DNA from: Aneurinibacillus terranovensis DSM 18919
Lineage (GTDB): Bacteria > Bacillota > Bacilli > Aneurinibacillales > Aneurinibacillaceae
Assembly (NCBI RefSeq): GCF_000430625.1
Contig: NZ_KE387176.1
Span: 45,502 to 84,299, forward strand
Direction: 5' to 3'
DNA length: 38,798 nt
A model generated the notes under the pieces. That model saw only the letters and a list, made by a program, of their open reading frames with translations, ran no database searches and was not told the origin of the DNA. Position numbers and translations under genes: made by a program. Positions 25,946 through 38,798 of the stretch are shown here, piece by piece; positions within the stretch are counted from its first letter, which is position 1, and the number at the start of each line of letters is the position of its first letter.

Positions 25946-26404
25946 TTAGAGTAATTTTCTAATGGTAAACATATCTTCAAGCACAAGCCAATTCTGGGGA
26001 AATTCATTACCAAGCACCCAGTAGCTGACGCCGCGCAAACCATAGCGGATAACGAGTTGATAGCGGGCTCTCATACTCCGCGCGTCTTCGAACCAAACGA
26101 TATGGTCTTTCCCCTCCTTGTCGCGGTAGCTAAAATGAGGCGCCTGCGCTTTCTTATCATATTCAATGGCGGCATTGTTTGCCGCGGCGATATCAATCGC
26201 TTCCTGGGGGCTAATGCTTCGGGCGAATTTTCCTCCCTCTACATACGGAAGCGTCCAGTCATACCCATAAAGATTGATTCCCATCATAATCTTATTTGCC
26301 GGGATTTGTGAAACGGCAAAACGAATCACATTTTCCACCTGATCAATCGGGGAAACAGGCATAGGAGGTCCTCCTCCCTTGACCATAGGCATACTTTGGT
26401 ATGT
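25946..26404 (-). pseudogene. 3' half of a spore GH18 hydrolase (YaaH/YdhD type), split by an element
   Basis: The visible 153 codons give the C-terminal third of a GH18 domain of the spore cortex or peptidoglycan type: GGGPPMPVSPIDQVENVIRF, KIMMGINLYGYDW, RYGLRGVSYWVLGNEFPQNW. The upstream catalytic strand (DxxDxE) and the LysM repeats expected at the N-terminus are absent. The frame continues upstream without interruption to ACA TAC CAA AGT and meets the stop codon of the serine recombinase at 26405-26407. The 5' half is not elsewhere in this window. I read it as a gene interrupted by an integrated element whose recombinase sits at this end. If excision occurs in the mother cell it could be functional. 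Confidence 0.7.
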
Positions 26405-27871
26405 TTAATTAAACTCCATCTCTTTTATGATGACTTTTTTATTCTTACGGTTTTTCCTTTGCTCGTCAGGAAGGTCGAGAACGATCTTCTTGACGAGAAT
26501 GTAGACCATTTGTTTTTTCTCTTTTGCACTGGCCTTTTCCCACACTTTTTTGGTATTCGTGATAATCTCTATGATTTCATTTTCCGAAAGAGCAGCATGA
26601 TCGGCTTCGTGCATGTTGAGCTCATTTTTAATGCGCTCCTCTTTCTCCCTCAGCTCATTCACACGCTCCCGTAAATCCTCAATCTCCATGAGTCCCTCGG
26701 AAAACAAAATCTGAAACCTTTTGCGCTGCTGCCCGATTTTTTTCAGTTCAGCTTCCAGGTGTTTCGTATTCATTGGAGACTTCTTATGCTTCTTTAGCTC
26801 CGATGTTTTGGCAACACTCGAATAGGATTCAATGATGGAGTCTAACTTCTCAACGAAAGACTCTTCCACAAAATAATCGGTGAGGGCAGGGGCGTTACAT
26901 TTTTTCATCCGGGCATTTTGACAGATGTAACGACGGATGACGTAATCGGAGTTCTTTTTTGTCATGGTGTGGCCAACCATTTTAGCGCCGCATCTGGCGC
27001 AGTAGGCTATACCGGAAAAGATATAATCAGAACCGATTTGGCGGGGGTGTTTGGGCTTTTTATTTTCATGTATCCTTTCCGCGGCCTCAAACATTTCTTT
27101 ATCGATGATTGCGGGGTGGGTATCTTCTAAGAGAATCCAATCCTCGGGGTGATTTACCGTGTGTTTTCCTTCGCGATAATTCCACCGGAGCGCTCCGAAA
27201 TACGCATGGTTATGTAAGATATGATAAATAGCGGTTCGGCTAAATTCTTTTCCTGATTTGGTTCGGTAACCGAGCTGATTGCATTCGATTGCAATGTTAT
27301 TCATCCCCACACCATTGAGATACCGGTTAAAAATGTATCGTACAACGACGGCTTCATTCTGATTAATGACCAGCTTTCGATCAACAAGATCATATCCGTA
27401 GGGCGGCGGCCCCCCCGGGCGTTTTTCCTGATGCACCATTTGCTCCATACCGAATCGTACACGTTCGGCAAGGTTTTCCCTTTCCCATTGGGCCAGCGCG
27501 GCTACAAGCGTCAAAAACAGGCGACCTATAGCGCTTGTCGTGTCATATACCTCGGTTGCACTTTTGAACTTTACCTCGTACTTTTCAAATTCCTGCAGCA
27601 ACCGGTACAAATCAAGGACCGATCGGGTTAGCCGGTCCAGGCGGTACACCAGAACAATATCAATTTTTTTCTTTCGTATATCGTCCATCATTCGTTGGAG
27701 TTCGGGTCTGTTTGTGTCTTTGGCCGAGAAGCCCTCCTCTATATAATAGTCGTACAGATCCCAATCCTGGGATTGCACATACTGCGTGAGCCGTTCTTTC
27801 TGCGCGGGGATGGAAAAGCCTTCCTTGGCCTGTTCATCTGTACTAACACGAATATAAATCGCTGTACGCAT
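26405..27871 (-). CDS. Large serine site-specific recombinase (SpoIVCA-like)
   Basis: A 488-residue large serine recombinase. The N-terminal resolvase fold contains MRTAIYIRVSTDEQAKEGF, with the nucleophilic serine near residue 10, and the LVYRLDRLTRS arginine motif. The recombinase domain (GGPPPYGYDLV onwards) is followed by a zinc ribbon (YCARCGAKM and the later CQNARMKKCNAP), then a coiled coil and a basic C-terminus. Length and layout match SpoIVCA/CcrB-type integrases. GGAGG lies before the ATG at 27871; the longer frame to 27994 has none. Its stop abuts the GH18 fragment, typical of an integrase next to its attachment site. Confidence 0.88.
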   Translation of the reverse strand: MRTAIYIRVSTDEQAKEGFSIPAQKERLTQYVQSQDWDLYDYYIEEGFSAKDTNRPELQRMMDDIRKKKIDIVLVYRLDRLTRSVLDLYRLLQEFEKYEVKFKSATEVYDTTSAIGRLFLTLVAALAQWERENLAERVRFGMEQMVHQEKRPGGPPPYGYDLVDRKLVINQNEAVVVRYIFNRYLNGVGMNNIAIECNQLGYRTKSGKEFSRTAIYHILHNHAYFGALRWNYREGKHTVNHPEDWILLEDTHPAIIDKEMFEAAERIHENKKPKHPRQIGSDYIFSGIAYCARCGAKMVGHTMTKKNSDYVIRRYICQNARMKKCNAPALTDYFVEESFVEKLDSIIESYSSVAKTSELKKHKKSPMNTKHLEAELKKIGQQRKRFQILFSEGLMEIEDLRERVNELREKEERIKNELNMHEADHAALSENEIIEIITNTKKVWEKASAKEKKQMVYILVKKIVLDLPDEQRKNRKNKKVIIKEMEFN

Positions 27872-27937
27872 CAGATACCTCCAATAAGATATGCAAGTAG
27901 AGCGTTTGTTCTTATTAAAATTTTCGATTAAGTTTAA

Positions 27938-28489
27938 CGTTTTTCCTGCCAAGGGTACATTTCGCATTTTGAATTTAATAAAAAACATCAGCATTTAGAT
28001 GTTTATCTTAAATTCCGTAGAGGGGCTTTGTTTGTCTGTTCAGGGTGCAGTACTGCCAATCAACCTGTCTATGATGTAGCGGATCAAAATCGAACATGGC
28101 GCCATTTAAATTTTTTTGAATATCCCTGCTACCTTCATTCGGAACTCCCACGGACAAAATGTGAGAAGTGTGGGAAAATTTTAAGAGTAAATGTTCCGTG
28201 GGCGATTAATCCTCGCCATTATTTTACGCTGAACTTTGATGCACTCGTTATGACCATGGCAAAGGATATGCCGATGAACGCGATTGCCCGTCTTCTTGGG
28301 GAACATGATACCAGGTTATGGCGAATTTTGCATTATTACGTAGAACAAGCGATTGAAGCACAAGATCTTTCTCATGTAACGAAAATCAGCACGGATGAAA
28401 CGTCATCTAAAAGGGGGCATAATTATATCACCATCTTTATGGATGCGGATCAAAAGGTCGTCATTTGTGCTACGGAAGGTCATGTATAA
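27938..28489 (+). pseudogene. ISL3-family transposase remnant
   Basis: An N-terminal piece of an ISL3-type transposase. In-frame sequence runs from about 27938 (HFEFNKKHQHLDVYLKF) through FVCSGCSTANQPVYDV, TWRHLNFFEYPCYLHSELPR and TKCEKCGKIL, with the family's zinc-finger cysteines. It continues into the start of the catalytic part (KISTDETSSKRGHNY) and stops at 28489 after ATEGHV. No start codon is available upstream, where recombinase leader sequence begins, and the C-terminal two thirds are missing. No terminal repeat is seen. It is inactive. Confidence 0.75.
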
Positions 28490-28634
28490 AGTCATTCCGC
28501 TACGCACTACAGCTATTCGCTCTTTGGCAAACAACTGGGTTCGTATTATCTTCGCAATGTGGAAGAATAACACTCCTTATGAGTCACAAATTTTTTCTAA
28601 AGCTCAAAAGAAACACTACCAAAATATAGCATAA
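28490..28634 (+). pseudogene. IS110-family transposase C-terminal remnant
   Basis: About 45 codons with TTAIRSLANNWVRIIFAMWK, then PYESQIFSKAQKKHYQNIA and a stop. This resembles the extreme C-terminus of IS110/IS1111-type transposases (ANxLVRIIYxxWKxxxPY). It is joined directly to the broken ISL3 gene. The rest of the gene is gone. Assignment rests on the tail motif only. Confidence 0.5.
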
Positions 28635-29047
28635 TTCTTTAGATAACTATGCTAAGATTCTTGCACCTATAAAATCGAACATATATTCCTATTGACATAG
28701 AGGGTCTTGCCTTGAGCTAATGGCTACTACTGCCTTCACCATTCGGGACTCTAACTCTATAGATAATGCCCATGACGGGCGCACTAACAAGCAGCCAAGC
28801 AGGTATACTGCTTGGCTATCAGGTTGTTGAGAAACTGCATATTTAAAAGCAAAGTGTATAACGGTGTATAAAATGCCATGAAAAACCATTTCCATAAAAT
28901 TATGGCATAAAATTAGAAGTTGCACTCCGTGCAGGATATTTTTGCATCATTTAAGAGCTCCCTTTTACTATATAATAGAAAAGGAGATGCACTTGTGTTT
29001 GAGAAAACAAAAAGTCATGAGTGTGCGGGCGTATTTCATCAATTTAC
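28635..29047. other. Non-coding stretch, probably an IS110-type element end
   Basis: About 400 bases without a supported gene. They hold several hairpins: CAAGCAG/CTGCTTG at 28791-28817, GCCAT/ATGGC near 28870-28910, and TGCAC/GTGCA at 28921. They follow an IS110-type transposase tail. In IS1111/IS110 elements such flanking non-coding ends encode the bridge RNA; that reading here is an inference. TATAAT (28971), AAGGAG and a GTG at 28995 open a 46-codon plus-strand ORF that runs antisense into the next gene. I do not consider it supported. Confidence 0.35.
28791..28817. repeat. 27-base palindromic repeat, copy A
   Basis: A short palindrome, AGCCAAGCAG-GTATA-CTGCTTGGCT with shared outer bases. 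It is 26 of 27 identical to 34817-34843, six kilobases away. Such identity is not expected by chance in a non-coding region. Confidence 0.85.
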
Positions 29048-29554
29048 TTATGAAACTTTTAGTTCTGATAGATTCCCATTCGATTTGTCCATGACGATTC
29101 CGCGAACGTTCACATTGGATGGAATAAGTGGATGATTTCGAATGATCTGGACACTTGTTTGTACACCATCCGTTATCGTTTTGCTGCCCTCTAACCATTC
29201 ACGCATAGAGGTCTCAGGAAATTCAGGCATACAAGCTTTAAATAGATAATCTAATACTTCTCTTTGTTTTCGTAATTCTTCTTTTTCATAAATTTTGTCC
29301 AATACTTCTTGCATATTAACTGCATTTGTTGGTTTGCCTTTTGTGCCGACTACATAAATTTCCTCAACGTTTTCCTCATACACCAAAAGGATGATATCTC
29401 GCATGAGATCACTATAGGGTTCTGTGATAACAGGACCATAAATTTGTAACACTAACATATCATCAGAATGGATATTGAACGCTTTTTGTAACAGTTCTAT
29501 TGTGTTATCCATTCCTATAATAAATAAGCTTTTATTTGTTTCTTCTTTAATCAT
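29048..29554 (-). CDS. Carbonic-anhydrase-like protein lacking zinc ligands (YbcF type)
   Basis: A 168-residue protein with the general plan of a beta-carbonic anhydrase: a strand SLFIIGMDNTIE where the Cys-x-Asp-x-Arg motif would be, a hydrophobic LQIYGPV segment, a helix with RDIILLVYEENVEEIYVVG, and then TKGKPT where His-x2-Cys-Gly would be. None of the three zinc ligands is present. A carbonic-anhydrase-like gene also follows the DabA homologue in B. subtilis (ybcF). It may be a regulatory or structural partner of the bicarbonate pump. I prefer the ATG at 29554 (8 bases after GGGG) over the GTG at 29563. Confidence 0.6.
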   Translation of the reverse strand: MIKEETNKSLFIIGMDNTIELLQKAFNIHSDDMLVLQIYGPVITEPYSDLMRDIILLVYEENVEEIYVVGTKGKPTNAVNMQEVLDKIYEKEELRKQREVLDYLFKACMPEFPETSMREWLEGSKTITDGVQTSVQIIRNHPLIPSNVNVRGIVMDKSNGNLSELKVS

Positions 29555-29590
29555 TTCATTCACCCCTATAATAAAATTATATGAATCGAT

Positions 29591-29956
29591 TTATGAAAAT
29601 TGGGTTTCCAAATTCTTTGCAAGTTTAAAAACCATGAGTCGTTCTCCCGTATGTGTACTAATATCGGTGTGGAAACTGGCGACCTCTTGCCCTGTAATTG
29701 TCATGATGATTTCTTTTAATTGTTCAATCCCCGATTCTACCAAGCCATTTCGGTTGTTTTTTACGGATAACATTCCATCTTTATCTTTGCATAAGGAATA
29801 TTCAGCGGGAGTCAAGATGTGATGCAATTGAACAATAATCATGTCTCGTAAGATATCGGATTTTACGGATGCCGAGCCAACCCCCAAGTAATTTTTTTCC
29901 CATTGTGTTAATGCTTTACTGATTTCAGCTTCTATAGCCCCTTTTGATTTACTCAT
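29591..29956 (-). CDS. DUF2294 protein (YbcI-like)
   Basis: A 121-residue protein with the DUF2294 signature: an N-terminal SKGAIEAEISKALTQWEKNY, then MIIVQLHHILTPAEYSL, and the C-terminal VASFHTDISTHTGERLMVFK. Function is unknown. Members are found in bicarbonate-uptake (ndhF-ybcC type) operons and also elsewhere. AGAGGGAT lies 14 bases before the ATG, a long spacing. It sits between dabA (115 bases upstream) and the carbonic-anhydrase-like gene (36 bases downstream), all co-directional. Confidence 0.8.
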   Translation of the reverse strand: MSKSKGAIEAEISKALTQWEKNYLGVGSASVKSDILRDMIIVQLHHILTPAEYSLCKDKDGMLSVKNNRNGLVESGIEQLKEIIMTITGQEVASFHTDISTHTGERLMVFKLAKNLETQFS

Positions 29957-30025
29957 ACTTATTTTCTTATCCCTCTTTCATAAAAGTGACCTAATCAAGG
30001 AACACATTGGTATAGTATTGGAAAA

Positions 30026-30061
30026 ACCAATCCTTTCTAACCATGCTCCCAGTCGATTGGT
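30026..30061 (-). terminator. Possible intra-operon hairpin after dabA
   Basis: On the minus strand ACCAATC pairs with GATTGGT over 22 bases, then TTTTTCC. It begins 11 bases after the dabA stop. It could partly terminate transcription before the DUF2294 gene. Confidence 0.4.
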
Positions 30062-30071
30062 GGGAAAGATA

Positions 30072-32663
30072 TCATGACCAACTTTCCCAATTTCCTTCTG
30101 GATCTATGGATGCAAGCCGAATCCATCCGTTTTGGACTTTTTGACGAAACTCAGGCACTTGTTCCAACAACCGCTCCACGTACTTTCTTGGCGCTTGAAT
30201 CACCACCAACAAACGCAAGGGTTCATGGTACATTTCGTCATCCGATTGTGCGACAGACTGCCAAGGAAGTCCCGTCAATAAGTCGCTGGCGTTCCCCTGC
30301 ATAACACCAATCCCAGAGGTTACGGTTTGAGTCGCTTTATTCCCGCTCCCGTAATAATGAGGGGCAACGGTAGATGCGTAATATTGCAGATTAATCCATT
30401 GAGCAACCGTTACCGGACCCGTAATGATGTTGGAAAGCAACGTGCCGGTCCTATCCTTTTGCCAGTCGTAGGTTTGGAGAAACGCTCTTCCATCCAAGTT
30501 GCAATTTCGGGTAAGTGTACGACTTCCAATGATAAAGGAGGCGTTACGCGCTAACCCCCATTCTGGTCGTATCTCACTCCAATCCTCAGCAAAGCGTTGT
30601 GCCTCTGCCTTTGGATTTTTGAGCTGTGTGCGAATGTTTGGTAAGCGTGAGAGCCGTTCTGCATTTGCCTTCTCACTCACCCTTTGCATCGTAGATTCAA
30701 TTTTATCCAAAGCTTCTTGCGCTGCAGGAGAAAGTGTGGGAACATACAGCCAACGGAGCGTATCCAGTGATGTGATATGTTCGGCAGCCGCAAATAAGGT
30801 ATCATCGGGAATCTCAATACCCTCAGTTTTAAGTGCTTGCCTGACGCTTGGCAGATTGCATAAGGTCGCAAGTACCCGGGCATTGAATCCACTTGACGTT
30901 CCTCCACATGCCCCACAATCCAAAGATGAAGCATAAGCATTATTGGTGCTGTGGCTACCGTGACCGCAAATAACCACCAAAGGAGCGAAACGCTCGGTAA
31001 GCCCCATCATTTTTAGAGCTTGCCGTACATAGTACACTTTTTCTTTCTCGGAAAAACCAATCGTTAACTCCGTTCCCGTAGTGTGTGTCTGACTGAGTGT
31101 GAGTTCTGTTGAAGGTTTACGGAGCCATGTTTTCCGAAGTCTGCGCAAGGAAATTCCTATGCCCCTTGGAACAAAGCAACGAGCCAAGGTCTGTAAACAA
31201 AGCCAAGGTCCGCTAATCTCTGGCAGTACGAGACTTGTAAACATGTTGTGTTTCATTGCGTGAAACGTAAAACTGAGAGAATTAGCCGCCTGTTGTCTCT
31301 GAAGATAGGAGTCATAGTCCTTATCATGTAACATTTCTTTGACTTTGTATTTGGGCTGAAACATCACTGGTAACGAGTTATGGTTGTGTTGGCTCCCAAG
31401 TGTACGGATTTGAATCGGAAGTCCGAAAAAACCAGCTGTCCCAAACGTTTCAAAAGGACCTTCCTGTTCAAGGTGGCGACGAAATGGCTCAGAACGTGTA
31501 TCAATACAAAATACAAATTGCGCCAATGCAGGCAGCATAGATTTGATTTCTGTGTGTGCTTGAGATGTGATCCTCTTCTTAACACTTTCTTCGTAGGTTT
31601 GTTCCCAAGCTTCCAGCCAAAGCCGATTCTGTACCGTTTTATCGAAACGGTAAGCAAGAGTCAACCGTGCTTTTAATTCGGAATAGGATACCTTCGTCCA
31701 TTCGTGAATTGGCAGGTCCCCCCATTGTACACAGGCAGCAATCAATGATTCTAAAAGTATGGATTGCTTTGTTCGTTCCTTCGACAAAGGAAGATACGGA
31801 TTGAGGAAGGCCCACTCCATGCAAATTCGAACAGCCAAATATTCCATAAGCAGGGAACGTTCTCGATCGTTTTGTTGGGAACGCCAAAGCATCATCCCTG
31901 CCCACCCAGGCATGGCAAGCAAATGGGCTTCCAGGTAACCTTGTATATTCGACTCAGGGATTTCAAGTTTCAACAGAACTTCTTGTAATGCCTGGTCCGC
32001 TCCACTCGGCAGTCCTACCAGTTGTTTCCGTACGACGGATGGTATTGCTGGGTCAAACTGAACAAATCTCTTCCACGCTTGGTAGAATCCTTTTTCTCGT
32101 TGGGGCATGGACCAAACCGCTTGGGATTCATCCAAGAATAATTTGCACCACTTGATACAATGGCGATTGAGATTGGAAGCTACCTCTTTCATCCCATCCT
32201 GTTCCAAACGCTGACTGTAGGTTCGTACAACATCTGGTTTGGTAATCTGGGGTTTAAACCGGTTTAGTCGTTTTGCCAACCGTTTTACCTCAGGTGTTGT
32301 CAGAAGTTTCGAAGATGGCGCATTTAGTAAAGCAGCCAGGCAGAACCGTTCGGCAACTTTTCGCGGTAGGTTTAACGACTGAGAATCAAGCCATTTTTGA
32401 AGACCCATTTCAAGAAACGACATGTGAATCTCGCCATGATTCCACGCAGACTGGAATACGAAATCGCTCGGATATATATCTACATCACACGTCTCTTTGA
32501 ATCGTCGTGCCACTTGCTCAAAAGAGTACCGCTCCAATCCCATCCACGGGTGACGTGCCGCAAATGTTTGTATAGGGCCAAGAGGTGCGATTACTTCACT
32601 CGCGGATTTCACATACTGCTCAATTTCTTGAATTTGGAAACCTGATTTCTTTTTTACCTGCAC
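30072..32663 (-). CDS. dabA: Inorganic carbon pump subunit DabA (DUF2309)
   Basis: An 863-residue soluble, beta-carbonic-anhydrase-like subunit of the DAB bicarbonate accumulation pump. It is thought to hydrate CO2 in one direction, driven by cation flux through DabB. The zinc site is intact. FCIDTRSEPFRRHLE gives Cys386 and Asp388. CGHGSHSTNNAYASSLDCGA gives His568 and Cys583, with the same 15-residue spacing as the characterised Halothiobacillus DabA. It starts at a GTG with GAGGAGG upstream, four bases after the dabB stop, so translation is probably coupled. It corresponds to B. subtilis YbcC. Confidence 0.93.
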   Translation of the reverse strand: MQVKKKSGFQIQEIEQYVKSASEVIAPLGPIQTFAARHPWMGLERYSFEQVARRFKETCDVDIYPSDFVFQSAWNHGEIHMSFLEMGLQKWLDSQSLNLPRKVAERFCLAALLNAPSSKLLTTPEVKRLAKRLNRFKPQITKPDVVRTYSQRLEQDGMKEVASNLNRHCIKWCKLFLDESQAVWSMPQREKGFYQAWKRFVQFDPAIPSVVRKQLVGLPSGADQALQEVLLKLEIPESNIQGYLEAHLLAMPGWAGMMLWRSQQNDRERSLLMEYLAVRICMEWAFLNPYLPLSKERTKQSILLESLIAACVQWGDLPIHEWTKVSYSELKARLTLAYRFDKTVQNRLWLEAWEQTYEESVKKRITSQAHTEIKSMLPALAQFVFCIDTRSEPFRRHLEQEGPFETFGTAGFFGLPIQIRTLGSQHNHNSLPVMFQPKYKVKEMLHDKDYDSYLQRQQAANSLSFTFHAMKHNMFTSLVLPEISGPWLCLQTLARCFVPRGIGISLRRLRKTWLRKPSTELTLSQTHTTGTELTIGFSEKEKVYYVRQALKMMGLTERFAPLVVICGHGSHSTNNAYASSLDCGACGGTSSGFNARVLATLCNLPSVRQALKTEGIEIPDDTLFAAAEHITSLDTLRWLYVPTLSPAAQEALDKIESTMQRVSEKANAERLSRLPNIRTQLKNPKAEAQRFAEDWSEIRPEWGLARNASFIIGSRTLTRNCNLDGRAFLQTYDWQKDRTGTLLSNIITGPVTVAQWINLQYYASTVAPHYYGSGNKATQTVTSGIGVMQGNASDLLTGLPWQSVAQSDDEMYHEPLRLLVVIQAPRKYVERLLEQVPEFRQKVQNGWIRLASIDPEGNWESWS

Positions 32664-32667
32664 TAGA

Positions 32668-34185
32668 TTACCTCCTCGATATGGATTTTATTAGATATGT
32701 TGGATGGGTTTCGACGGAATCGTTTTGAGGTTCACTCAAATGCACAAGCCATAAATAAAAAATGGCAAAAGACGTTGATGACTGCCGACGAACGAACCAC
32801 GATCCTATAAAGCTTCCAAGGAACAATAGAAACATAAGCAAAGTACCCGATAATATTGGCGGTTGAAATCCTTTTTGTATGGTTGCCTGTAACACTAGAT
32901 AAAAGGCGGTATGGGTCATGTAAAATACGACTGCAACTCCTGCAAATAGGGAAGCCCCTGCAATACGCCCAATGCGGCCATACCCTTGAGCCACAAGTTT
33001 TGTCCATGCCAATGATACAGACCAACCTAAGAATATGGCACTTACCAATTGATACACGTCACCGCGGGACGTAAGCCAAACAACTATACCCACGATAAGC
33101 CCTAGTACAACGCCAATGACGTTCCAAAAAAGGGAATATGGTACATTGCGAGATAGGGGTTTATCGTGCTGGATTGCAGAACCAGCTCGTAAGAACAAAG
33201 TCGCTTTGAAGACTCCGTGTAATATGGCGTGAGCAATCGCTGCCCAATATGCACCTAATGCACACTGAATTAACATGAAACCCATTTGTGCCATCGTAGA
33301 TCCTACGAGTTGTCGTTTATAATCCACCTGAACCAACATGATTCCGCTCCCCATCAGGACTGAAAGGCTACACCACACGAGCAAAACCATCTGTGCCGCA
33401 CTGTCGTTAAAATTTGGAGCAAAAAGAGTCAGCAGAAGTCCTCCGGCATTCACAATGCCCGCATGCATGATAGCGGAAATTGGTGTGGGAGCCACGACCG
33501 AATCAAACAACCAGCGTTGGAACGGCCATTGAGCGGCTGGAATCATGACAGCTATGACAAGAAGTAGATTGATAGATGTCCTCTCCCATGAACTGAGCTT
33601 TGCAAGACTGGTTGGAGTTAGAACAAGTGACAACTGCCAATGACCTGTAACGTTCGCTACCCAAAGTATCGCGGCGAGTAAGATAAGCCAACTCATTAAA
33701 AACAGTCGCCCGGAAAGAAAAGCTGCATTTCGGGCTACATACCACTCTTTTTTCAAACGGATGAGCCACGTGAGTCCAAGAAGTGTAGCTCCCCAACAGA
33801 CCAAAAGCCACCGTAGATCGTCGCTTAGCCAAGCAACGGAATCCGCAACCGTAGTGAAGGTAAGAAGCGCAAAATAGGTTCGGTACGAACGATCACCCAG
33901 TAAGTAATGAACCGAGTAACGCTGTACAAATAAACCAATGGTAAGGACGAATAATGCAATGAGCCAGGATAATGAATCAAACCGCCAAGGACCAAAAAAG
34001 ACATTTCTATGACCAAAAACAAGAGCTAATAAAGCAACTATTGGCGGTAACGATATAAGGCCGATATGAATTCGAACAAAAGTTACGGGAACCCGAGGGT
34101 ATAACAGAAATATCGCGCTAAGCAAAGAAACTGCAAGTACGATAAAAAATGCGGTTGGGAATAAAACAAAGCTAAGGCCTACCAT
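32668..34185 (-). CDS. dabB: Inorganic carbon pump membrane subunit DabB (NdhF/NuoL-like)
   Basis: A 505-residue membrane protein of the proton-conducting transporter family (complex I NuoL / Mrp antiporter type) with about 13-14 helices. Family hallmarks are the core segment WPFQRWLFDSVVAPTPISAI, then MHAGIVNAGGLLLTLFAPNF, with conserved Lys/His around GSTMAQMGFML and AIAHAILHGVFKATLFLRAG. It energises DabA. I place the start at the ATG at 34185, ten bases after AAGGGGG; an in-frame start 13 codons earlier has no site. It is first gene of the dab operon, preceded by a 325-base leader with a terminator. Confidence 0.9.
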   Translation of the reverse strand: MVGLSFVLFPTAFFIVLAVSLLSAIFLLYPRVPVTFVRIHIGLISLPPIVALLALVFGHRNVFFGPWRFDSLSWLIALFVLTIGLFVQRYSVHYLLGDRSYRTYFALLTFTTVADSVAWLSDDLRWLLVCWGATLLGLTWLIRLKKEWYVARNAAFLSGRLFLMSWLILLAAILWVANVTGHWQLSLVLTPTSLAKLSSWERTSINLLLVIAVMIPAAQWPFQRWLFDSVVAPTPISAIMHAGIVNAGGLLLTLFAPNFNDSAAQMVLLVWCSLSVLMGSGIMLVQVDYKRQLVGSTMAQMGFMLIQCALGAYWAAIAHAILHGVFKATLFLRAGSAIQHDKPLSRNVPYSLFWNVIGVVLGLIVGIVVWLTSRGDVYQLVSAIFLGWSVSLAWTKLVAQGYGRIGRIAGASLFAGVAVVFYMTHTAFYLVLQATIQKGFQPPILSGTLLMFLLFLGSFIGSWFVRRQSSTSFAIFYLWLVHLSEPQNDSVETHPTYLIKSISRR

Positions 34186-34301
34186 CCGGTTTTCCCCCTT
34201 GGAAGAACTGGATGAAAGCAACAAAAATACTAAAACTAGAAATAACCATTCGTATCATTTTAAAAACGTTCCTTTCCTCGTTTAACCCCTTTTTTTCAAA
34301 T

Positions 34302-34365
34302 AAAAAAACCGACAAATCCAGAATTCATGGTCTTATAACCATTAATCTCTGGAACTTGTCGGTTT
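34302..34365 (-). terminator. Leader terminator (attenuator) of the dab operon
   Basis: On the minus strand AAACCGACAA pairs with TTGTCGGTTT, with inner stems TCCAGA/TCTGGA and ATGGT/ACCAT. Seven U residues follow at once. It lies between the dab promoter and the dabB start, so full-length message needs readthrough or antitermination. Confidence 0.85.
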
Positions 34366-34516
34366 ACTGTCAACTAACCAATTGGTTTTTTGAAAAGTCT
34401 ACCTGCTCTTCCATATTGAATTGCATTCGAAACTGCGTAAATATCTTAACACCATTCATAATAGATTTCATGAATAGAGTATACGTAAGGATTCCACTTA
34501 ATGAGTTTCTGCCTAT

Positions 34517-34545
34517 ATTCTAGTACTTATTGTATACCCCGTCAA
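34517..34545 (-). promoter_or_regulatory. SigA promoter of the dab operon
   Basis: On the minus strand TTGACG and TAGAAT are separated by exactly 17 bases. This predicts transcription from about 34510 and a 325-base untranslated leader. A small palindrome, GGTTTTATTAAACC (34547-34560), sits directly upstream and may be an operator. Confidence 0.8.
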
Positions 34546-34721
34546 GGGTTTAATAAAACCAATTAAAAATCCCATCCTTTCTTTGTCATGGGAGCTTTGC
34601 AGGTTATTCTGTTCTTATTTATGAATATCCACGCCTGTTTATGTATTAATATACATCAATTACAAAGAGGCACAATTGCGGAATCCTGCTCGATAGTTAA
34701 ATAAAATAGAAAAACACAAGT

Positions 34722-34745
34722 AAAAAACCCCTCTAGGTAGAGGGG
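34722..34745 (-). terminator. Minus-strand terminator upstream of the dab promoter
   Basis: CCCCTCT and AGAGGGG form a 7-bp stem with a 4-base loop, followed on the minus strand by TTTTTT. No supported protein gene ends here, so it may close a small RNA that starts near 35000. Confidence 0.8.
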
Positions 34746-34816
34746 GGGATCTTTAATTAATATATATCCATAAATGTTTCTGAAAATACAGTTAAAACAA
34801 GTTTATCGACACTCTG

Positions 34817-34843
34817 GCAGCCAAGCAGGTATACTGATTGGCT
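34817..34843. repeat. 27-base palindromic repeat, copy B
   Basis: The same palindrome as at 28791-28817 with one difference (CTGATTGG instead of CTGCTTGG). It lies between the minus-strand terminator and the long hairpin. The two copies bracket the dab operon. Confidence 0.85.
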
Positions 34844-34852
34844 GTTTACATA

Positions 34853-34914
34853 TTTATGAATTAGCCGAGAACACTCATGACTGAAGTCACGAGTGTTCTC
34901 GGCTAATTCATAAA
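34853..34914. repeat. 24-bp perfect inverted repeat (long hairpin)
   Basis: Arms TTTATGAATTAGCCGAGAAC plus ACTC, and the exact complement at 34891-34914, with a 14-base loop that itself pairs TGAC/GTCA around TGAA. It is effectively one 62-nt hairpin. No U-tract follows on either strand, so it is not a normal terminator. An 85-codon minus-strand frame crosses it but lacks a convincing start. Confidence 0.85.
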
Positions 34915-35043
34915 AATTCCTTTTCTGTATCGTGTTCAAAAATGGATAAAAAATATTCAACGTATTTGTGCTCAAAACAAGCAAATCCGTAACTCTAAAA
35001 GATAAATCGGTCAAAAAGTCTGAAAATGTAATATAATCTATTA

Positions 35044-35072
35044 TTGTATGCTAAATATTTACATGGTATGAT
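35044..35072 (+). promoter_or_regulatory. Promoter of the toxin-antitoxin operon
   Basis: TTGTAT and TATGAT with 17-base spacing and an extended -10 (TGGTATGAT). It lies about 140 bases before the antitoxin start. Confidence 0.65.
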
Positions 35073-35116
35073 ATATTAAATAAAAAAACTGGCGAACGAT
35101 TTTTAATCTATTAGGC

Positions 35117-35152
35117 TATGTTCTCTATTAAAATGAATGAATAGAGAACATA
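35117..35152. promoter_or_regulatory. 13-bp inverted repeat, possible TA operator
   Basis: TATGTTCTCTATT and AATAGAGAACATA are perfect arms 10 bases apart, between the predicted promoter and the antitoxin gene. It could be the binding site for autorepression by the antitoxin, or a leader hairpin. Confidence 0.55.
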
Positions 35153-35210
35153 TGGCTAATTAATTGGACAAGCAGCCCTATGCTATTCTTCTTAAAGGAG
35201 ATGATAGTGT

Positions 35211-35417
35211 ATGTGCGATGAAAAAGGGAAGGGTGATGATAATATGTTAGTTTCCCCCACTAAAGCAAAAAACCTAAAAAGAAAAGTTACGCGTGGATAT
35301 CGTTCAAACCTTTTGGCTAAAGCTACACCCGAACAACTACGTGTCGCTAATGAAATGGCTAAAAAAAGCCGTGGAATCAGCAATCTGACATATAGAGATG
35401 TTTACGGGGAGGATTAA
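35211..35417 (+). CDS. Putative antitoxin of a PemK/MazF-type pair
   Basis: A 68-residue, very basic and polar protein beginning MCDEKGKGDDNM. A lysine/arginine-rich middle follows (KAKNLKRKVTRGYRSNLL) and a helical C-terminus (QLRVANEMAKKSRGISNLTY, then RDVYGED). AAAGGAG lies 10 bases before the ATG; an internal ATG 11 codons later (MLVSP) is the alternative. It ends 2 bases before the toxin-like gene. I do not recognise a named antitoxin family. The role is inferred from size, order and tight coupling. Confidence 0.55.
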   Translation: MCDEKGKGDDNMLVSPTKAKNLKRKVTRGYRSNLLAKATPEQLRVANEMAKKSRGISNLTYRDVYGED

Positions 35418-35419
35418 AG

Positions 35420-36019
35420 GTGTTCAGAGATAAAGATAACTGGTTTTTTATTGAACGCGGAAAAGTATTCCAGGCTGCTATGTATTATCTTTCTGATACA
35501 AAGCGGCCTTTATCTTTTTTCATACCCGATAATGATGACAAATATCGTGGTACAATATTCGGAATGGACGGAGATTTTTCTCCAGAATTTAAAGATGGTA
35601 AATACTCTGCTAAAGAACACGAAGTTATATTTAAAATAAAGCCAAGACCAGTAGTTATTGTATCAAACGATACAAATAATCAATCAGACTATGAATATGT
35701 TCAAATTGCTCCGATAATGGGATTGTCAGAAGACGACAAACAAAATGGTCAGTTTTATACCGAGTTAAAAGAAGATAGGCATCCTTTATTTGTTTTTCTT
35801 CCCGAAAACTGTACAAAAGGAATCTCAAAAGAGTCATACATAGATGTTAGTGAATTAACATCTATACATAAGAGCCTCCTTTTAAAAATGGAAGGAAAAT
35901 TACCGAACGAAAGAATAGAAATGACAGAGCAACGTATATTAGACTGGTTAGATATCGGAGAGAAGGTAGAGGATGATGAAACAACCCCTAATTCTAACAG
36001 CTTTGAAAATATGAAATGA
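35420..36019 (+). CDS. PemK/MazF-like toxin, enlarged
   Basis: A 199-residue protein whose central and C-terminal parts resemble PemK/MazF ribonucleases. KPRPVVIVSNDTNN corresponds to the RPVVVVSND strand. ISKESYIDVSELTSIHKSLL, then KMEGKLPNERIEMTEQRIL, corresponds to the family's C-terminal SYV...TI.K..L....G.L segment. It is far longer than the usual 110-120 residues: about 70 extra N-terminal residues (FFIERGKVFQAAMYYLSD onward) and a polar tail. GTG start with GGGGAGG seven bases upstream. If active it would cleave mRNA when the labile upstream protein is lost. Confidence 0.65.
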   Translation: MFRDKDNWFFIERGKVFQAAMYYLSDTKRPLSFFIPDNDDKYRGTIFGMDGDFSPEFKDGKYSAKEHEVIFKIKPRPVVIVSNDTNNQSDYEYVQIAPIMGLSEDDKQNGQFYTELKEDRHPLFVFLPENCTKGISKESYIDVSELTSIHKSLLLKMEGKLPNERIEMTEQRILDWLDIGEKVEDDETTPNSNSFENMK

Positions 36020-36034
36020 AAGAAAAAGGGGCTG

Positions 36035-36073
36035 ACCAAAAAGAACGTACCTTGATGATACGCTCTTTTTGGT
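36035..36073 (+). terminator. Terminator after the toxin gene
   Basis: ACCAAAAAGA-A-CGTA pairs with TACG-C-TCTTTTTGGT over a 9-base loop. The T-rich right arm and following TTTAAGG give a weak U-tract. Confidence 0.6.
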
Positions 36074-36210
36074 TTAAGGATTCTTTAATCCGTGATTATA
36101 AATTCAAATCCAATAGGCATTTTTCTAACTGAAGGCGATGCTTCTTCTAAAGTATCAGATAATTATCGACACTATAACAATGCGCATAACTGCATAATTA
36201 CTCATTCTGA

Positions 36211-36235
36211 GACTACCTTTTCGGTGGTCTTTTTT
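36211..36235 (+). terminator. Orphan rho-independent terminator
   Basis: GACTACC and GGTGGTC (one G-U pair) with a five-base loop, then TTTTTT. No intact gene precedes it between 36075 and 36210. It may end readthrough from the toxin operon or mark a deleted gene. Confidence 0.7.
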
Positions 36236-36315
36236 GATGGAAAAATTATTATTTAACCTTCTTGACTTCTTGAAGTCTTGAATTATATGATTTAGATATC
36301 AAGGAGGTGAATATT

Positions 36316-36459
36316 ATAAAAACGCTAACGTTACGAATGGATGATGAACTCCATAAACAGATAAAACTCAAAACTGTAATGGAGGAATGCACCATTCAAG
36401 ACTATATCATGTCACTGATTAAGAAAGACCTGCAACAAGACGAACAAAAAGCAAAATAA
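36316..36459 (+). CDS. Ribbon-helix-helix DNA-binding protein, unusual start
   Basis: About 47 codons reading KTLTLRMDDELHKQIKLKTV, then MEECTIQDYIMSLIKKDLQQ. This is an Arc/CopG/HicB-like ribbon-helix-helix: one strand then two helices. A strong AAGGAGG ends at 36307, but no ATG follows in frame at usable distance. ATT (36313, 5 bases away) and ATA (36316, 8 bases away) are the only codons in position. The in-frame GTG at 36307 overlaps the ribosome site itself, and the in-frame ATG at 36340 would remove the strand. I list the ATA start. It may be a plasmid- or phage-type repressor or antitoxin. Confidence 0.6.
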   Translation: MKTLTLRMDDELHKQIKLKTVMEECTIQDYIMSLIKKDLQQDEQKAK

Positions 36460-36460
36460 A

Positions 36461-36500
36461 AAGGGAAGTCGCATCCCCACCAAGAGAGTCGACTTCCCTT
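36461..36500. terminator. Hairpin after the RHH gene
   Basis: AAGGGAAGTCG and CGACTTCCCTT form a perfect 11-bp stem. A U-tract is present only on the minus-strand side (TTTTTATTTT). On the plus strand it may still protect or terminate the RHH message. Confidence 0.6.
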
Positions 36501-36591
36501 CACATCAGCACAACCCTCCGAAGAGGTTGCCTTATTATTATAACAAGGGAATCCTCCTAACGGCAAGGGTTGTCAAATAAGAGGAATACCT

Positions 36592-37380
36592 ATGAATAAG
36601 CTTGAGAAAATTTTCAGTTATCAAGGTCAATCCGTTAGAGTGATTATAAAAGATGGAGAGCCATGGTGGGTTTCAAAGGACGTATGTGATGCTTTATCAA
36701 TCGCTCGTACACAGATTAGAAGACTAGACGATGATGAAAAGGGTGTGCATTTAATGCACACCCCTGGCGGACAGCAAGATATTGCCATTGTAAATGAATA
36801 CGGTCTTTACTCTCTTATTCTTGGCAGCCGTAAACCCGAAGCAAAAGTCTTCAAACGCTGGATTACACATGAAGTTCTCCTAGCCATCCGCACAACAGGG
36901 GAATATAGTGTCATACAGAAACCCACTGTACCGGCTCTGGCTATCCAAAAGCCTAGCCACACGAATTCGAAAATACGAGAGGCGAAACAACTTTTTGCTA
37001 TTCTCCGTGAAAATCAGTATGTGATGACACCTGAAGCACACCATGCCATTCTCTCTCACGTCACGGAATTACTCACGGGTAAGCCATTATCTCAACCGAT
37101 GCCCGAAGAAAGTATTCAAGTACCCATAAAATCATGGAAGAGAGATAGTAAACGCCCACCTGCCAATGAGTTCTGGCGATTCATTTGTGATCTTTCAGAT
37201 GAAATCGGAGTGGCTCGTCCACGGACGAAGGATTTGGGTGAATGGTGGGAGCATGCGTTACAACAAATGGATGAGAAATGGCTTGATTTGCTGTCGGAGA
37301 AACTTGATAACTCATCCAATTGGGTGCTCCAATTTTTAAAGAAAAAGTTGGAACAACACAAACAAAACCATTTGAATTAA
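36592..37380 (+). CDS. BRO-type phage antirepressor
   Basis: A 262-residue protein with an N-terminal BRO/ANT domain: VIIKDGEPWWVSKDVCDALS (about 17-36), then GGQQDIAIVNEYGLYSLILG (about 59-78) and SRKPEAKVFKRWITHEVL. This is the usual fold of prophage antirepressors. The middle (about 110-165) is helical. The C-terminal third, with DSKRPPANEFWRFICDLSDE and the Trp-rich WWEHALQQMDEKWLDLL, I do not recognise. GAGG lies eight bases before the ATG. It stands after RHH and toxin-antitoxin genes, consistent with a prophage or plasmid remnant. Confidence 0.8.
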   Translation: MNKLEKIFSYQGQSVRVIIKDGEPWWVSKDVCDALSIARTQIRRLDDDEKGVHLMHTPGGQQDIAIVNEYGLYSLILGSRKPEAKVFKRWITHEVLLAIRTTGEYSVIQKPTVPALAIQKPSHTNSKIREAKQLFAILRENQYVMTPEAHHAILSHVTELLTGKPLSQPMPEESIQVPIKSWKRDSKRPPANEFWRFICDLSDEIGVARPRTKDLGEWWEHALQQMDEKWLDLLSEKLDNSSNWVLQFLKKKLEQHKQNHLN

Positions 37381-37598
37381 TTAACAGCCGGTGGAGTGAA
37401 GTAGCTCCACCCATTCTGTTTAAGGAGGTGACATTCAGTGTCCTGTCTGAACCGTGAAACTTTCAAAAACGCGAACTTTTTATGTACTGTTTTTCTTAAA
37501 ATTCCATTGTAAAATAGTAGTGTGTAAAAAATTGTATAACGACTTCAAGAGGCCACTGCCATTGATATCATACATATTCAAGCAAAGGAGGCATTACG

Positions 37599-38648
37599 AT
37601 GAAACGTGCGTTAAAAATGGCTACGTTTGGCACAATCGTTGCGGCAACAGCCTTTACCCCGCTGTTCGCCTACGCGGAATCCTTTAAAGATATTCCAGCC
37701 AACCACTGGGCGAAAAATACCATTACGTGGGGAACGCAAAACCATGTCGTACACGGCTACCCGGATGGCACCTTCCATCCGGATAATCAGGTAAGCGAAG
37801 ACGAATTCCTTGCCATGCTTGTCAATTCGTTTGCCGGGGTACAAGCGAAAACCGATGCCCGTTGGGACAGCGGCTATTACACGTATGCTGTGAAGATGAA
37901 CTACCCAACCCAGGGAGCTGCAAATGAAACGGCACGGGGGTGGAAAATCAACCGCGGTCAAGTGGCGGAAATTCTCGCCGGAGCCACTGGGGTGAACTAC
38001 ACAGGAGATGACGCCGTGAAATACCTACTGGCAAAAGGATTAGCAAAGGGGAAAGATCCAAGCCAGGTCAGCATCGAAGCATATAAGGCTAGCGATTACC
38101 TGACACGCGCGGAAGCTGTGCAGTTTATCAAAACGGCGAAACAGCAGGGCCTAACCGAGCTGAAAGCCCGCCCGGCTCAACCGTCTGATCCGGCGCTGAT
38201 CCCACCGCTGCCACAACCGGCACCACCCGTGCCTCAACCTGCGCCACAGCCAACGAATCCCACGATTGAACAAAACCTTGAACGTGCAGCAAATGCATTA
38301 CAAAACTCGAACGTCCCTGATGGCACAATAGCCAAATATGCACGGCTGCTGTATCAATCCGCGAAGGGAGCCGTGGTGGAAGGCGACAAGGTGAAAATCA
38401 CGTTGCCACCCATCGAAAAGGGCTATTTAATAACCATCGGCTGGGGAACAGGGCATGTGGATTACGGAACGAATACCAAGAATCCGGTGGTCCCCTCAAC
38501 GGTAGAAATTCCGAAGACCAATTTTTTTGGTATGGGAGTATATTACCAGGGGCACGGTACATCAGGGGTTGGTGATGCCTATGCTTACTATAACAACATC
38601 AATGGAATAAAGGTAAATGACATTCTAATTGAAAACTTTCAGAAGTAG
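37599..38648 (+). CDS. SLH-domain surface protein
   Basis: A 349-residue secreted protein. The signal peptide ends near PLFAYAES (about 27). An SLH domain follows (FKDIPANHWAKNTITWGTQN, then HGYPDGTFHPDNQVSEDEFL), with a second degenerate SLH-like stretch (about 105-190) including YLTRAEAVQFIK. SLH domains bind pyruvylated wall polymers. A Pro/Gln-rich linker (about 198-225) leads to a C-terminal domain of about 125 residues (YLITIGWGTGHVDYGT, VYYQGHGTSGVGDAYAYYN) that I do not recognise. It has aromatic and Gly-rich character. AAAGGAGG precedes the ATG. No clear promoter was identified in 37381-37580. Confidence 0.82.
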   Translation: MKRALKMATFGTIVAATAFTPLFAYAESFKDIPANHWAKNTITWGTQNHVVHGYPDGTFHPDNQVSEDEFLAMLVNSFAGVQAKTDARWDSGYYTYAVKMNYPTQGAANETARGWKINRGQVAEILAGATGVNYTGDDAVKYLLAKGLAKGKDPSQVSIEAYKASDYLTRAEAVQFIKTAKQQGLTELKARPAQPSDPALIPPLPQPAPPVPQPAPQPTNPTIEQNLERAANALQNSNVPDGTIAKYARLLYQSAKGAVVEGDKVKITLPPIEKGYLITIGWGTGHVDYGTNTKNPVVPSTVEIPKTNFFGMGVYYQGHGTSGVGDAYAYYNNINGIKVNDILIENFQK

Positions 38649-38654
38649 GTTTAA

Positions 38655-38685
38655 ACCGCATCTCATGGAGGTGCGGTATTTTTTT
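38655..38685 (+). terminator. Terminator of the SLH gene
   Basis: ACCGCATCTC and GAGGTGCGGT pair (one mismatch) over ATG, followed by ATTTTTTT. Confidence 0.9.
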
Positions 38686-38712
38686 ACCCAATTAAAGAGA
38701 GGAGATGATAAA

Positions 38713-38798
38713 ATGCAGAGAAAAAAAACGATTCGAAAATGGGGCAGTCTTCTTACGGCGGCAAGCCTTCTGGTTCTCCAGCCTGTCACAGCGCTGGC
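38713..38798 (+). CDS. Secreted protein, partial
   Basis: The first 28 codons of a gene cut by the right edge: MQRKKTIRKWGSLLTAA, then a hydrophobic stretch and a likely cleavage site near VTALA. It is a classical signal peptide. GAGGAG precedes the ATG. It follows the SLH gene after a terminator and may be another surface protein. The mature part is not visible. Confidence 0.75.
   Translation, partial: MQRKKTIRKWGSLLTAASLLVLQPVTAL

Follow-up and report, generated by a model that had tools for sequence, protein, structure and literature searches.

In the window, by which we mean the whole 38,798-nucleotide stretch of DNA analysed here (G000:C14:45502-84299, where G000 labels the window genome, an assembly of 98 contigs, and the right edge is the end of contig C14), a GH18 frame without its N-terminal part lies just beyond the stop codon of a serine recombinase gene. 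This raises the question whether the frame is the remnant of a destroyed gene or one half of a gene that is interrupted by an excisable element and can be restored. A first-pass annotation of the sequence had proposed the latter. The features on which the answer depends are the following:

25946-26374, minus strand: 3′ part of a SleL/YaaH-type gene, including the stop codon (C-terminal third of GH18; assigned by Pfam, homologs and purifying selection)
26364-26374, minus strand: putative attR core GGAGGACCTCC, 11 bp that recur unchanged where the 5′ half ends on contig C26
26383-26395, minus strand: putative attR arm AGTATGCCTATGG, which in the deduced excised circle faces CCATAGGCATGC, its inverted copy from the other end
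26405-27871, minus strand: complete large serine recombinase of 488 aa (Pfam Resolvase, Recombinase and Zn_ribbon_recom), predicted to excise and insert the element
26375-38798, no strand assigned: part of the element within the window; beyond a stretch missing from the assembly, it continues on C26 (57505-60106)

The divided GH18 gene

The C-terminal third of GH18 was located in the minus frame 25946-26392 (Pfam profile positions 215-316 of 317, E 5e-12). The truncation described in the first-pass annotation, and the completeness of the recombinase next to it, were confirmed, but the boundary was not the recombinase stop codon itself: the GH18 sequence starts at the core (26374-26367), about 31 bp further on. 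The open frame runs from the recombinase stop (TAA, 26407-26405) via ACA TAC CAA AGT into GH18, and the residues between the stop and GH18, TYQSMPMVKG, derive from the recombination-site arm of the element.

If the gene is split, a 5′ half with LysM domains and the catalytic acidic motif should exist elsewhere in the genome in a matching orientation, as the first-pass annotation had predicted. Indeed, when the 5′ part of the intact gene of the relative G004 was used as a query, such a half was found in the expected orientation at G000:C26:56647-57516, near the end of that contig at 60106. It encodes two LysM domains and the catalytic half with the acidic motif NIDFE, the split lying inside the GH18 barrel. 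Furthermore, this half ends in the core that it shares with 26364-26374, both halves in G000 having a GGAGGACC-type core at their ends, and joining them restores the frame. The crossover dinucleotide is predicted to be the GG at 26370-26371, inside GGAGGACC, where the centre of the G000 dyad also falls.

The joined G000 protein is an intact protein of 429 aa with two LysM domains and a GH18 barrel of the SleL/YaaH type. Among solved SleL/YaaH structures it matched 4s3j over its full length (residues 2-427, E 1e-117) and 4s3k, followed by YdhD (3cz8). The YaaH/YdhD-type cortex hydrolase named as host gene in the first-pass annotation could thus be specified as SleL/YaaH-type on the basis of structure matches. 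In B. subtilis, sigma-E RNA polymerase transcribes yaaH (Kodama 1999, as cited in PMC6282716), and sleL/yaaH is for this reason regarded here as a sporulation gene. No convincing sigma-E or sigma-K consensus emerged from scans of the regions preceding the 5′ half and the recombinase gene, and neither an excised circle nor a rejoined gene was visible in any assembly examined.

Recurrence, age and selection in related genomes

The 3′ half was searched against 60 relatives and the window genome. While the full gene of about 380-490 aa was present in most of them, the frame measured only 152-164 aa in G001, G002, G005, G007 and G008. Of these, Aneurinibacillus sp. Ricciae_BoGa-3 (G001), of the same genus as the window genome, and A. 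thermoaerophilus L 420-91 (G008) are what we take to be the nearest named relatives. In all five further carriers the 3′ fragment follows a related recombinase gene, and a 5′ half in the expected orientation was found in 6/6 genomes. The same junction in five further genomes is not attributable to chance, which upheld the reading of the GH18 gene as split by an element. The detached 3′ halves of G001, G005, G007 and G008 were 71-80% identical to that of the window, and the intact G004 gene 73%. Both halves lie on a single contig in the five further carriers and on two contigs in G000; in G001, G005 and G007, where the assembled chromosome is unbroken at the locus, 5-13 kb separates the two halves, which share one orientation.

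Cutting and joining at the core gave open frames in all six genomes, with products of 427-431 aa. In each of them the insertion lies at the same codon, within conserved codons for Gly-Gly-Pro midway through the GH18 barrel. Nearly all six elements have a TGCCTAT-type arm at attR and an inverted ATA(A/G)GCA-type arm at attL, the weakest being those of G002. The element ends form a junction in which inverted arms flank the core, as they should in an attP site of a serine integrase. The location on one strand and in one frame across the recombinase TAA, as noted in the first-pass annotation, holds for the window, but the frame relation is not kept among the carriers: the gap of G008 is wider, and CarD-like and cold-shock genes separate the recombinase from the 3′ fragment in G005 and G007.

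The carriers span three genera, and their elements are 7.4 kb (G001), 3.8 kb (G002), 5.0 kb (G005), 12.8 kb (G007) and 9.6 kb (G008) in size. They share little beyond the recombinase and one small ORF, except in the closely related G005 and G007, the cargo being mostly unrelated. In a protein tree of joined and intact sequences, five of the split genes grouped with the intact G004 ortholog and the G002 gene with different paralogs; forcing all six host genes together was rejected (AU test, p = 2.4e-5). Since the G002 host gene is another paralog that is interrupted at the same codon, the trees indicate that insertion at this codon took place at least twice. The recombinases linked to the five orthologs branched in the same order as the host genes, (G000, G001) and (G008, (G005, G007)). 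This fits a long residence of the element in the host gene, because the recombinase tree follows that of the host gene. Family members with an intact gene (G004) or without the gene also exist, and the element is therefore not essential to the lineage.

For the pair G005-G007, dN/dS amounted to 0.094 in the 5′ half and 0.029 in the detached 3′ half, with 25-33% of synonymous sites differing. In most other pairs synonymous sites were saturated, dN was moderate and the amino acids were conserved. Internal stop codons were absent from the 5′ and 3′ halves. Judged by these substitution patterns, both detached halves are under purifying selection.

Other candidate interpretations were rejected. Simple deletion or decay is contradicted by the 5′ half, the shared core, the restored frame and the low dN/dS; a read-through fusion of recombinase and GH18 by the lack of conservation of the frame relation and the gap; and an assembly artefact by the recurrence of the structure in chromosomes without an assembly break. 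A short frame in Calidifontibacillus (L074) proved to be a frameshifted second copy of the gene and not an element.

Recombinase, small protein and cargo

The window recombinase matched the integrase family phrog_95 (E 7.5e-142), and the six GH18-linked recombinases formed one clade (SH-aLRT 99). The sister of this clade, an integrase encoded in a prophage-like G001 region (L171, G001:C1:4213000-4232900), is 62% identical to the window recombinase; this region also has a copy of the small protein described below. The best-matching phage integrases, of Geobacillus phage PK5.2, Parageobacillus phage NIIg3.2 and thermophilic phage D6E, were 43-45% identical, and viral contigs of IMG/VR yielded distant recombinases only. 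The first-pass annotation had called the enzyme SpoIVCA-type. It is a large serine recombinase as this implies, but it is close to phage integrases and very distant from the sigK-element recombinases of these Aneurinibacillus genomes: in a tree built without B. subtilis SpoIVCA, it did not group with the sigK-linked recombinases, those of G000 and G001 falling outside on very long branches. In G002 the reading frame of the recombinase is broken, with 408 of about 489 aa in one frame (L129, G002:C12:88500-99500). This is the recombinase of the smallest element, and the apparent frameshift is either real or a sequencing error. Besides this recombinase and the small ORF, an SLH-like protein is the only long ORF of the G002 element.

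The small ORF encodes a protein of a family of 43-59 aa (alignment A1). Five of the six elements contain it, encoded in the orientation opposite to the recombinase gene; the single copy of G000 lies on C50, a contig that may or may not belong to the element. Phages PK5.2, D6E and NIIg3.2, whose integrases best match the window recombinase, carry a copy as well. Among the 17 genomes searched, the small protein was present in 6/6 genomes with the element and in 0/5 family genomes without it, and elsewhere hits were weak, with E values above 0.07. The phage version corresponds to phrog_30936, which is listed in PHROGs as of unknown function. Upstream of the small ORF, the arrangement GTCC-14 nt-CATA was invariant in all seven sequences compared and is promoter-like in its fixed spacing; promoters recognised by sigma-E and sigma-K have a -10 box that begins with CATA. 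In this upstream region the sigma-E score did not exceed that of shuffled sequence, and consensus scans were not above background. We consider the protein of about 50 aa a candidate recombination directionality (excision) factor. It is similarly small as the known factors of such elements, such as C. difficile CD1234 (72 aa), the expression of which is driven by sigma-E and SpoIIID.

In G000 the element comprises at least 15.0 kb (2,597 + 12,429 bp) plus the unassembled gap. In G001, where the locus is on one chromosome contig, the gene order to the left of the 5′ half is that of C26 and the order to the right of the 3′ half is that of the window. Because of this synteny on both flanks, G001 supports an arrangement C26 - element - C14 in G000 across the assembly gap. 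The accessory genes to the right of the recombinase would hence be cargo, as the first-pass annotation had suspected, because they are placed between both att sites by contig orientation and G001 synteny. These genes include:

28028-28489, plus strand: truncated ISL3-family transposase (Pfam)
29048-29563, minus strand: 171-aa ORF adjoining dabAB, without a Pfam match and carbonic-anhydrase-like by eye only
30072-32663, minus strand: DabA, inorganic carbon transporter subunit (Pfam DabA, E 1.6e-260)
32668-34224, minus strand: DabB-like proton-antiporter subunit (Pfam Proton_antipo_M/N)
35420-36019, plus strand: protein with a PemK/MazF-like toxin domain (Pfam)
36592-37380, plus strand: BRO-N family protein of the phage antirepressor type (Pfam)
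37599-38648, plus strand: S-layer-homology protein (Pfam SLH)

A dabA-dabB operon for inorganic carbon uptake (29048-34224) is thus carried as cargo. The S-layer-homology protein weakly matches the SLH-like cargo of the G002 element. Capsid, tail and terminase genes were not recognised in the six elements, as judged by Pfam for the window genes and by eye for the rest, with the gap in G000.

Explanations for the split gene and wider meaning

The six loci share three features with sporulation gene-intervening elements: gene halves in the same orientation at the two ends, a shared core that restores the frame, and a large serine recombinase, interrupted in G002. In the papers examined, the sporulation genes reported as hosts of excisable elements that split them are sigK, spsM, spoVFB and spoVR (PMC4191935), gerE (PMC5595907) and yabG (PMC10747680). 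Our searches of the literature outside subscription papers and preprints retrieved no element splitting yaaH/sleL, and within the literature searched sleL/yaaH is a newly recognised target of what appears to be a gene-splitting element. The known element that most resembles it is gin in gerE of Bacillus cereus ATCC10987 (PMC5595907). Both have largely non-phage cargo that varies among strains or genomes while the recombinases stay, a large serine recombinase, and a short core in both gene halves, which are in frame when joined; gin employs the small extra factor GirX, to which the candidate factor of about 50 aa may correspond. In contrast, gin interrupts the gene for a transcription factor, measures 28.6 kb and has three recombinases, whereas the sleL element has one recombinase, ranges from 3.8 to more than 15 kb and interrupts a cortex hydrolase gene, its excision being predicted. 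The skin element of B. subtilis and C. difficile (PMC5025042) likewise carries its own serine recombinase and splits a sporulation gene that is rejoined, with a 72-aa directionality factor in C. difficile, but its host gene is sigK and its content is prophage-like. SP-beta in spsM (PMC4191935), vfbin in spoVFB, vrin in spoVR and yin in yabG (PMC10747680) split other sporulation genes, and most of them are prophages or remnants of prophages; yin has been reported from a single strain (PMC10747680), whereas the sleL element occurs over three genera. Phages PK5.2, NIIg3.2 and D6E have a related integrase and a homolog of the small protein, but are complete phages with no known gene-restoring role.

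Taken together, these findings make it highly probable that a site-specific recombinase-encoding element is located in the SleL/YaaH-type cortex hydrolase gene and is excised by its recombinase to restore this gene, presumably at sporulation. With the element in place, the gene would consist of two useless pieces, one with both LysM domains and the catalytic-acid half and one with the remaining half of the barrel. The serine recombinase and the small directionality protein would then recombine attL with attR at the 2-bp GG crossover in GGAGGACC, by which the circle would be released and the reading frame restored. We infer excision, its timing in the mother cell during sporulation, the directional role of the small protein, and the subsequent action of the restored enzyme in cortex breakdown at germination.

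Conceivably, the sleL element could be an ordinary integrative element in a dispensable gene, the excision of which is tied to its own biology, such as stress or transfer, rather than to sporulation, the gene being off in carriers. The closest integrases are indeed those of phages and of the prophage-like region of G001, the sigma-E and sigma-K promoter scans were unconvincing, and spore formers possess other cortex hydrolases. However, both halves are conserved over three genera despite saturated synonymous sites, the congruent trees of the five orthologs imply that the element has long been in place, and its recombinase, att sites and small protein were kept amid little phage content and mostly unrelated cargo. 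We therefore regard this explanation as improbable.

It is very unlikely that the hydrolase gene was inactivated by an insertion or deletion and left as two decaying pieces. A dead gene would agree with the inability of either piece alone to fold a complete barrel and with the absence of the gene from some relatives, but not with a 5′ half that ends in the shared core, a frame restored in 6/6 genomes, low dN/dS in both halves and the absence of stop codons. Even less credible is that the halves are translated separately and that the two chains together form an active enzyme without DNA rearrangement. Both halves are open frames under selection, as this would demand; yet the 3′ half has no conserved start codon or ribosome-binding site, the sequence upstream of it differs among genomes, and selection also kept the matching att cores and the recombinase.

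Excision of the sleL element may not be the only event of this kind in these genomes. In G000, sigK is in three pieces, covering model positions of about 2-70 and 62-117 on C47 (L195, G000:C47:20000-32486) and 112-227 on C38 (L196, G000:C38:1-14000). Each later piece is preceded by its own serine recombinase gene, and C38 is phage-like by eye. Through the cores AAGA (site 1) and GAGAT(T/C)(C/T)TAATG (site 2), the pieces would join in frame; with three pieces and two core sites, this would take two excisions. The sigK gene is also split in G001 (L197), G002 (L198), G007 (L199-L200) and G008 (L203-L204), and G005 (L201-L202) has, in the vicinity of an intact sigK, several N-terminal fragments as well as a single 3′ fragment.

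Related recombinases, about 44-49% identical to that of the window, were also found just upstream of the C-terminal half of an HtrA-like protease, which contains the GNSGGP serine, at 22 of 24 loci (L147-L168, L172-L174) in genomes that appear Paenibacillaceae-like. In G054 and G311 the N-terminal half with the His/Asp part is 2.1-3.2 kb away, and joining at a GGTTC(C/T)CC core restores the gene. By this reconstruction, a related branch of recombinases splits another gene, that of the HtrA-like protease.

The occurrence of the split in three genera, at least two insertions at the same codon and selection on both halves together provide strong sequence evidence that such splits serve a function and persist for long periods. 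As an enzyme of germination and not of the building of the spore, a cortex-lytic hydrolase would represent a target of a new kind for these elements. The small linked protein is a testable candidate for the switch that times excision. More tentatively, and with the balance of our judgement leaning slightly against it, programmed excision may form a layer of spore control that acts on several genes at once, namely sigK in up to three pieces with two excisions, sleL, and the HtrA-like protease in Paenibacillaceae-like genomes. On this view, the benefit of restoring these genes at the right time would have kept the elements in their host genes on a genus-level time scale, and the small protein would act as the mother-cell trigger.
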